Shown piece by piece: positions 33,793 through 35,887 of a stretch of DNA of 42,257 nt (positions are counted from its first letter, which is position 1; each line of letters begins with the position of its first letter). The stretch is from Alphaproteobacteria bacterium (GTDB taxonomy: Bacteria > Pseudomonadota > Alphaproteobacteria > ATCC43930 > CGMCC-115725). Under the pieces are notes generated by a model. That model saw only the letters and a program-made list of their open reading frames with translations. It had not been told where the DNA came from and did no database searches. Location of the stretch: assembly GCA_030042035.1 (NCBI GenBank), contig JASIAN010000136.1, positions 1 through 42,257 of the forward strand, read 5' to 3'. The translations under genes were made by a program, and so were the position numbers.

Positions 33793-33942
33793 CGTGCTTG
33801 TCGTCCTCGTTCGTGAAGGCGTGCCAGCCTTACGAAATCTGCGCCTCGCGGTCGAGCATTTTCCGCTACACTCGGGGCAGCCATTCCCGCCCGTCCGGGG
33901 CGGGTGTATAGGGTGGGAAGAAGCCAGTCACGGAGACGCCAG

Positions 33943-35091
33943 ATGAAGAACGGGTTGCGCGTATTCGACGCCGATACGCATGTCGAACCGACCGCCGAAG
34001 TGCTCGACAAATACGTCGATCCCGCCTTTCGCGCGCGCCTGCCCGATCTGGCGCAATACCGCCAGCCGGTCCGCGCCGGCGGCCCCGGCGCCTCGCCCGG
34101 CCGGCACGTCTACCGCTTCGGCCAGATCTCCTATAAGCGCATCCTCGGCGAGGCGGCGCCGCGCGACGCGCACAGCGGCCGCGACACGCATTGGATGGGG
34201 TCGAAGCAGCCGCGCCCCGGTGTGCAGGACGACAATGCCGCGGCCCGCATCCACGATATGGACGACGAGGGGACCGACACGCACTTCCTGATCCCGACTT
34301 CGTGGACGAGCTTTGTCGGCCATGAGGACCCGGCGATCGAGGTGAACATCATCCGCGCCTTCCATCGCCACATGGGCGATTTCAGCAGCCAATACCCGGA
34401 CCGGCTGAAGAGCATGATCGTCGCTTCGGCGCGCGACGTCGACGCCGCGGTAAAGGAAATTCGCGAGTGGGGCAAATCGCGCTGGGCGGTCGCGATCATG
34501 CCGCTCGTCACGAAGGACATCCCCGCCGACCATCCAAAGCTCGAACCGATCTGGCAGGCGGCCGTCGAGCACGACCTGCCGATTGCGCATCACAGCTTCA
34601 CGTGGACGCCGCCCTATTTCCCCGGCGTGTTCGACCTGTGGGACAATATCTTCCTCGGCCGCTTGGCGTCGCACCCGTGGGGCGCGATGCGCTTTGTCGC
34701 CTCGTTCATCGGCGGCGGCATCCCCGACCGCTATCCGAATTTGCGCTTCGGAACCTTGGAATGCGGCTTCGGCTGGCTGCCATTCTGGGGTCGCCGCATG
34801 GACGAGCAGTACGCCTATGTCGGCTCGACCGCGCAATTGAAGATGAAGCCGAGCGAATACCTGAAAAGCGGTCGCTACTTCTGCAGCGTCGAGCGGCACG
34901 AGGGGCCGGACATGCTCGACATGGTGCGGGGCTTCCTCGGCGACGACGTGTTGATGTACGCGTCCGACTATCCGCACTCGGAATGCCAGTTTCCCGACAC
35001 GGTCAGCAATTTCCTGGCCTGGGATATGAAGCCGGCGGCGCGCACCAAGCTGATGGCTGGTAACGCCGACCGCTTCTTCAAGCGCGCTTGA
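33943..35091 (+). CDS. Amidohydrolase_2 family protein
   Basis: This 382-residue metal-dependent TIM-barrel protein carries the DxH metal motif Asp11-Thr-His13 at its first strand (VFDADTHVEP). Further on are IAHHSFTW (metal His), LRFGTLECGFGWLPFW and the C-terminal Asp in MYASDYPHSE. Both DxH and the late Asp distinguish it from the Glu-x-His decarboxylase at 2028. Relatives include hydrolases and decarboxylases with unknown substrates. GGAG lies about 9 bases before ATG 33943. Its last 14 bases overlap the convergent PEP-CTERM gene. Confidence 0.82.
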   Translation: MKNGLRVFDADTHVEPTAEVLDKYVDPAFRARLPDLAQYRQPVRAGGPGASPGRHVYRFGQISYKRILGEAAPRDAHSGRDTHWMGSKQPRPGVQDDNAAARIHDMDDEGTDTHFLIPTSWTSFVGHEDPAIEVNIIRAFHRHMGDFSSQYPDRLKSMIVASARDVDAAVKEIREWGKSRWAVAIMPLVTKDIPADHPKLEPIWQAAVEHDLPIAHHSFTWTPPYFPGVFDLWDNIFLGRLASHPWGAMRFVASFIGGGIPDRYPNLRFGTLECGFGWLPFWGRRMDEQYAYVGSTAQLKMKPSEYLKSGRYFCSVERHEGPDMLDMVRGFLGDDVLMYASDYPHSECQFPDTVSNFLAWDMKPAARTKLMAGNADRFFKRA

Positions 35092-35758
35092 GCGCGATGC
35101 TGGCGCCGCGTCGCCGCCGCAGCGCCAGACCGCACAGCGCTGCGGCGAACAGTGCCAGCGAATTGGGCTCGGGCACCGGCGTCGGCGAGTCTGCGGCGTA
35201 GCTCTGCTGGCCCTCAAGGCCCTTCAGCTCATCGGCCTCGCCGCTGAAATCGCCGGCAGCGGCCTCGCTGACAAGGTGGTTCGTCAGATCCGCCAATGCG
35301 CTGTCGCCGCCGGAATATGAGAAATCGGCATACTCGATCGACCAGATCGCCAACTGCACGGCGGCCGATTCCCGATCGAGATCGGCGGTTGTCCCACCGG
35401 CGGCGAGAAGGTTGTCGCCATAGGCAGCGAGACCGGAGATATCGGCGATCTGTGCCGCAGTGAGCGGATTGCCGTTGTTGTCGGTCGTAATCGGTTCGAT
35501 CTCGAAGATCGAATCCTGCGGGCCAAGGGAGCCGTCGTGAAACAGATCGATGCACCACGCATCGATCGTGCCATCGGTCGTCGTTGTCAGCACGAGCTGG
35601 CCGACATCGGCCTCGGTGGGCGCAATCGGGCCGTCGATCGTCAAAATCTCCTCATACGGCATCGCAATATTGGTGACCGTTATGTCATCAGCCGCTGCCC
35701 CGCTCGCTTCGGCGATCACGGCGAGCGCGAGCACCGCAAGACCAACCAACCATTTCAT
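35078..35758 (-). CDS. Secreted PEP-CTERM protein with thioester-like Cys/Gln motifs
   Basis: The product has 226 residues. A signal peptide (about 1-23, MKWLVGLAVLALAVIAEASG) is followed by an acidic Thr/Asp-rich ectodomain. The C-terminal sorting signal comprises VPEPNS (195-200), a hydrophobic helix (about 201-213) and an Arg cluster (214-217), the pattern recognised by exosortase. In the ectodomain, Trp-Cys69-Ile-Asp-Leu and the later Ala-Val-Gln135-Leu-Ala-Ile-Trp resemble the Cys and Gln motifs of thioester adhesin domains; a bond is inference. AGGA sits about 7 bases before the ATG. No exosortase gene is in the window. Confidence 0.8.
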   Translation of the reverse strand: MKWLVGLAVLALAVIAEASGAAADDITVTNIAMPYEEILTIDGPIAPTEADVGQLVLTTTTDGTIDAWCIDLFHDGSLGPQDSIFEIEPITTDNNGNPLTAAQIADISGLAAYGDNLLAAGGTTADLDRESAAVQLAIWSIEYADFSYSGGDSALADLTNHLVSEAAAGDFSGEADELKGLEGQQSYAADSPTPVPEPNSLALFAAALCGLALRRRRGASIALKRA

Positions 35759-35873: not shown

Positions 35874-35887
35874 TTGATGCAGATCAA
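35874..35887 (+). promoter_or_regulatory. Perfect FNR/FixK-type binding site
   Basis: TTGATGCAGATCAA is an exact match to the FNR/FixK consensus TTGAT-N4-ATCAA. Its centre (35880.5) lies 76 bases before the ATG at 35957. If it acts as a class II site (centre at -41.5), transcription would start near 35922 with a weak -10 at about 35909-35914 (TTAGAC). That leaves a short leader with GGAG at 35944-35947. The target is most likely the rightward secreted-protein gene; action on the leftward PEP-CTERM gene (116 bases away) is also possible. Confidence 0.65.

Follow-up and report, generated by a model that had tools for sequence, protein, structure and literature searches.

A minus-strand gene at bp 35,078–35,758 of the window (the whole 42,257 bp stretch of DNA analysed here) encodes a 226 amino acid protein that is probably, at about two chances in three as judged from sequence, an exosortase substrate carrying a compact, stalkless thioester domain (TED), in which a self-forming thioester between Cys69 and Gln184 or Gln185 would capture a partner covalently. 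Direct support comes from the gene itself, its PEP-CTERM signal, an exosortase in the same genome, a homology-level match to the TED family and the near-invariance of one Cys, two Gln and one Trp in its relatives.

The gene and its surroundings

The protein is composed of a signal peptide, a domain of ∼165 residues and a C-terminal PEP-CTERM signal. Residues ∼1–23 (MKWLVGLAVLALAVIAEASGAAA; bp 35,690–35,758) read as a Sec signal peptide without a lipobox and with a putative cleavage site; residues 24–194 (bp 35,177–35,689) comprise the TED-like ectodomain and a linker; and residues 194–216 (bp 35,111–35,179) hold the sorting signal, which consists of VPEP, a hydrophobic stretch and RRRR. A convergent amidohydrolase-like open reading frame (ORF; bp 33,904–35,091) overlaps the 3′ end of the gene with its own end, and a plus-strand ORF at bp 35,957 diverges from the start of the gene. 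The intergenic region between the gene and this divergent ORF contains a perfect FNR/Anr/FixK-type palindrome, TTGATGCAGATCAA (bp 35,874–35,887), which hints at oxygen-linked control of the gene, the divergent ORF or both. No other such site occurs in the window (0 expected), and the 3.8-Mb assembly has 19 in all. Matches in the window to a sigma-54 promoter, the type used by pepA, do not exceed chance, and none lies upstream of the gene.

The sorting signal scores 30 bits against PF07589 (cut-off 20.7) and 22.4 bits against TIGR02595 (cut-off 16). It is the best of five PEP-CTERM matches in the assembly, four of which are above the cut-off, and the assembly encodes one clear exosortase (PF09721, E = 2.8e-60). 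Because its motif exceeds the cut-off and the genome encodes an exosortase, the protein should be a PEP-CTERM/exosortase substrate, in agreement with the original prediction of an exosortase-sorted PEP-CTERM protein. The LPXTG anchor and the isopeptide or ester stalk domains of TIE proteins are absent; the credible Pfam domains are TED and PEP-CTERM only.

Membership in the thioester domain family

The TED profile PF08341 matches residues 67–167 of the protein over profile positions 2–101 of 102, at E = 9e-4 and 20 bits (cut-off 22); the isolated domain scores 21 bits, and the E-values of the two forms span 5e-4 to 9e-4. This score is marginal by itself, and relatives were therefore collected. 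The domains of 14 of 17 representative relatives match PF08341 at E ≤ 1 (best E = 2e-6), and no other Pfam family recurs among the 17. The comparison with PF08341 that had been proposed as a check on the original prediction thus leaves the window protein a little under the cut-off, but three of ten individually scored relatives exceed it (28.6, 26.5 and 22.7 bits). In addition, a profile of the 56-member family retrieves, at E = 7.6e-9, an independent protein that scores above the PF08341 cut-off (L007, discussed below). The suspected likeness to thioester adhesins is thus supported at the level of homology.

All three TED motifs, C-Φ-ζ, QxxΦW and a C-terminal Q-ζ-Φ-Φ, are present in the correct order. 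The Cys strand motif is WCID (Cys69 codon bp 35,552–35,554, in WCIDL); its Trp lies outside the published [YFL] at the position before the Cys, and the relatives mostly have FC, YC or WC. The central-helix motif TQxxΦW is represented by VQLAIW (Gln135 codon bp 35,354–35,356, in AVQLAIW), and the C-terminal ΦQ-ζ-Φ-Φ by the Gln184–Gln185 pair in GQQSYA (codons bp 35,204–35,209, in EGQQSYA). Taken together, these features make a divergent member of the TED family the most likely identity of the domain.

The bond partner of Cys69

In characterised TEDs, the Cys of the [YFL]C-Φ-ζ motif is bonded to the Gln of ΦQ-ζ-Φ-Φ in the C-terminal strand; the Gln of TQxxΦW lies in the central helix and hydrogen bonds to the backbone of the Cys, and mutating it leaves the bond intact (PMC4450167; PMC6194298). 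Conservation was scored in 56 distinct domains drawn from all fetched loci, mostly found by profile searches and ∼17–35% identical to the window domain. Cys69 is conserved in all 56, Gln135 in 55, and Trp139 and the Gln184 column in 54 each; one of the two exceptions at Gln184 is truncated by the end of its locus. The C-terminal Gln was absent from every search pattern, and 24 rounds of shuffling and realigning the C-terminal segments never placed more than 22 Gln in one column, compared with 54 of 56 in the real alignment. One relative, L028, is a natural variant that separates the roles of the two Gln residues: Ala replaces Gln135 (GLALALW), and the Cys and the C-terminal Gln are retained, which is the pattern expected if the C-terminal Gln is the bond partner. 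Cys69 is the only Cys of the mature ectodomain, and most family members likewise have a single one, which disfavours a role in a disulphide.

It seems most likely from these patterns that Cys69 pairs with Gln184, 11 residues before VPEP, or possibly with the adjacent Gln185, and not with Gln135, which would be a second-shell residue. The original prediction had located Cys69 and Gln135 correctly, and their conservation across diverged homologues shows that the pattern exceeds chance, but it overlooked Gln184, left the minus strand unstated and assigned the thioester to Cys69 and Gln135. That pairing has in its favor the near-invariance of both residues and the resemblance of AVQLAIW to (T/V)QxA(I/V)W. 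It is nevertheless very improbable, given that the bond in known TEDs does not depend on the helical Gln (PMC4450167; PMC6194298), that a distinct C-terminal Gln is equally conserved, and that L028 has lost the helix Gln and kept the other two residues. Since the bonding Gln of known TEDs sits in the C-terminal strand, the Cys69–Gln135 distance suggested as a check would test the wrong pair.

Structure models

An AlphaFold model built from nine sequences is of low confidence (pLDDT 53, pTM 0.58). TEDs fold as a β-barrel with a three-helix subdomain and have the Cys and the bonding Gln side by side. The elements of the model run in TED order: the Cys terminates a strand, three helices follow, and Gln184–Gln185 lie in a final hairpin. 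A second model, started from the best-scoring relative (L014), is worse (pLDDT 42). A Foldseek search of the PDB with the first model gave no significant match. Eight TED chains (from 5a0d, 5a0g and 6fx6) are among the weak matches listed, at E ∼2 or worse, and together with the element order they may mildly corroborate a TED fold. Sequence searches of the PDB with the window protein and two family profiles found no match.

Relatives and their distribution

A search of 146 related genomes with the single protein gave two true homologues, and a scan of GTDB genomes with patterns back-translated from the Cys and QxAIW regions yielded eight loci, in Rhodospirillales, Magnetospirillum, Rhodopila, Phenylobacterium, Gemmataceae and Isosphaeraceae. 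The closest homologues are in metagenome-assembled genomes (MAGs) named Rhodospirillales. One candidate, L006, was discarded as a spurious match within another gene. Such patterns select for the Cys and the helix Gln, so profile searches (E of 1e-4 or better) were used instead for genome counts; they place the family in 58 of 298 sampled genomes of the planctomycete class to which the Isosphaeraceae MAG belongs and in five of 385 genomes of the window's own class. Relatives were also sought in viral contigs, and none was found.

Four planctomycete genomes carry tandem pairs of TED-like genes ∼1 kb apart (L032–L039), with VPLP-type C-terminal signals and with the Cys and both Gln kept in each gene. 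Elsewhere in planctomycetes, the domain lies inside large proteins (L027, L029, L030, L061–L064 and L070–L072) whose ORFs reach 4432 codons. In some of them IPT-like or FG-GAP-like repeats can be recognised by eye; thus multi-domain surface proteins there also carry the domain. In one of these, the Gemmataceae paralogue L030, the helix motif reads AALQLDLSL and has lost the Trp that the close paralogues L027 and L029 retain; L030 is possibly a decaying copy. The alphaproteobacterial L007, a 944-codon ORF of genome G292, shows SdrD-like repeats on visual inspection, and its C-terminal domain exceeds the PF08341 cut-off; it appears to be a further Gram-negative TED, within a multi-domain protein.

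Comparison with known thioester and PEP-CTERM proteins

The class I TEDs of Gram-positive adhesins (SfbI, FbaB and CpTIE; PF08341; PDB 5A0D and 5A0G) have the same motif order as the window protein, and its Cys–Gln spacing of 115 residues is near the 129 of CpTIE (Cys138–Gln267). Both lack an Ig insertion, and both are exported and sorted at the C-terminus, although the class I adhesins use sortase and LPXTG in Gram-positive hosts, whereas the window protein has an exosortase-type PEP-CTERM signal in a Gram-negative one. The window protein differs from them further in its Trp before the Cys, in having no stalk, isopeptide or ester domains and in matching no PDB sequence. Gram-positive TEDs are usually carried on stalks; here the domain instead abuts the sorting signal. 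Class II TEDs (BaTIE, SaTIE and the pLS20 TIE) share the same three conserved positions but have an Ig-like insertion that forms a slipknot, which the window domain lacks. When the family was compared by profile with seven class II TEDs of the pLS20 type, with the Ig insertion either present or excised, the result was not significant and the alignment covered only the region around the Cys. The test is weak, because those seven barely find SaTIE themselves (E = 0.0015).

The floc protein PepA (NF033554) also has a Sec signal and a PEP-CTERM tail, and it is mainly the sorting region that the two proteins share. The best PepA-like matches have no QxxΦW motif and are unmatched by the TED-like profile, and by the tests run here PepA itself does not appear to be a TED. 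The window protein was considered as a floc_PepA relative and rejected, at 33.1 bits against a required 80.

Proposed mechanism and alternatives

We propose that the domain folds after Sec export and that Cys69, positioned by Gln135 and Trp139 of the central helix, would attack the side chain of Gln184 (or Gln185), with loss of ammonia, to give the internal thioester. Exosortase would remove the PEP-CTERM tail and place the protein at the cell surface or release it there or into exopolysaccharide. A nucleophile of the partner, an amine or hydroxyl, would then open the thioester and leave Gln184 covalently linked to it. We infer bond formation, surface location, capture and the partner. With no stalk between the domain and the sorting signal, the protein may sit within the polysaccharide layer or be released into it, rather than project from the cell as a fibrillar adhesin.

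Two alternatives concern the nature of the domain. It could have a TED fold but form no reactive thioester in vivo, with Cys69 and the two Gln residues making a buried hydrogen-bond network that stabilises a non-covalent matrix protein. In its favor, the thioester is a prediction from sequence, the structure models are poor, and a domain that directly precedes its anchor is awkwardly placed for a harpoon. However, a lone invariant Cys and a near-invariant C-terminal Gln, retained at such low identity, are what a self-forming bond predicts, and a mere hydrogen-bond network would tolerate replacement of the Cys by Ser or Ala; we regard this alternative as unlikely. Considerably less probable still is a chance resemblance of motifs in a PEP-CTERM matrix protein unrelated to TEDs, such as one of the floc_PepA type. 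The window protein has a TED score below the cut-off and its similarity to NF033554 extends over residues 98–217, but that score is far under the NF033554 cut-off, and TED is the only recurring Pfam family among the relatives. Furthermore, most other PEP-CTERM proteins retrieved by NF033554 lack QxxIW and are unmatched by the family profile, so the similarity is mainly that of the sorting signal. A thioester between Cys69 and a C-terminal Gln is thus the reading we prefer.

Implications

The founding survey of TEDs found them exclusively in Gram-positives, and our literature search found no paper connecting TEDs to either PEP-CTERM or planctomycetes. A stalkless, exosortase-sorted TED in a Gram-negative therefore appears to be a new form; the kind of domain is already known, since Pfam would already call some of the planctomycete members TED. 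These sequences suggest that exosortase-using bacteria may also make surface proteins that stick covalently by "chemical harpoon" TEDs. More tentatively, and with the odds somewhat against it, the family may be a large non-Gram-positive TED branch that is exosortase-sorted and acts not as a stalked host adhesin but as a secreted covalent matrix cross-linker, tying proteins to exopolysaccharide or to one another. If so, the PEP-CTERM system would gain a chemical means of joining protein to polymer.

PEP-CTERM proteins have been tied to bound exopolysaccharide and floc formation, and overexpression of PepA shifts polysaccharide from the soluble to the bound form (PMC9850573). A TED on exosortase substrates would suggest a concrete chemistry for the action of PEP-CTERM proteins on exopolysaccharide, and its three-residue signature, in Alphaproteobacteria and about one-fifth of the sampled planctomycete-class genomes, would extend covalent adhesion to Gram-negative surfaces.
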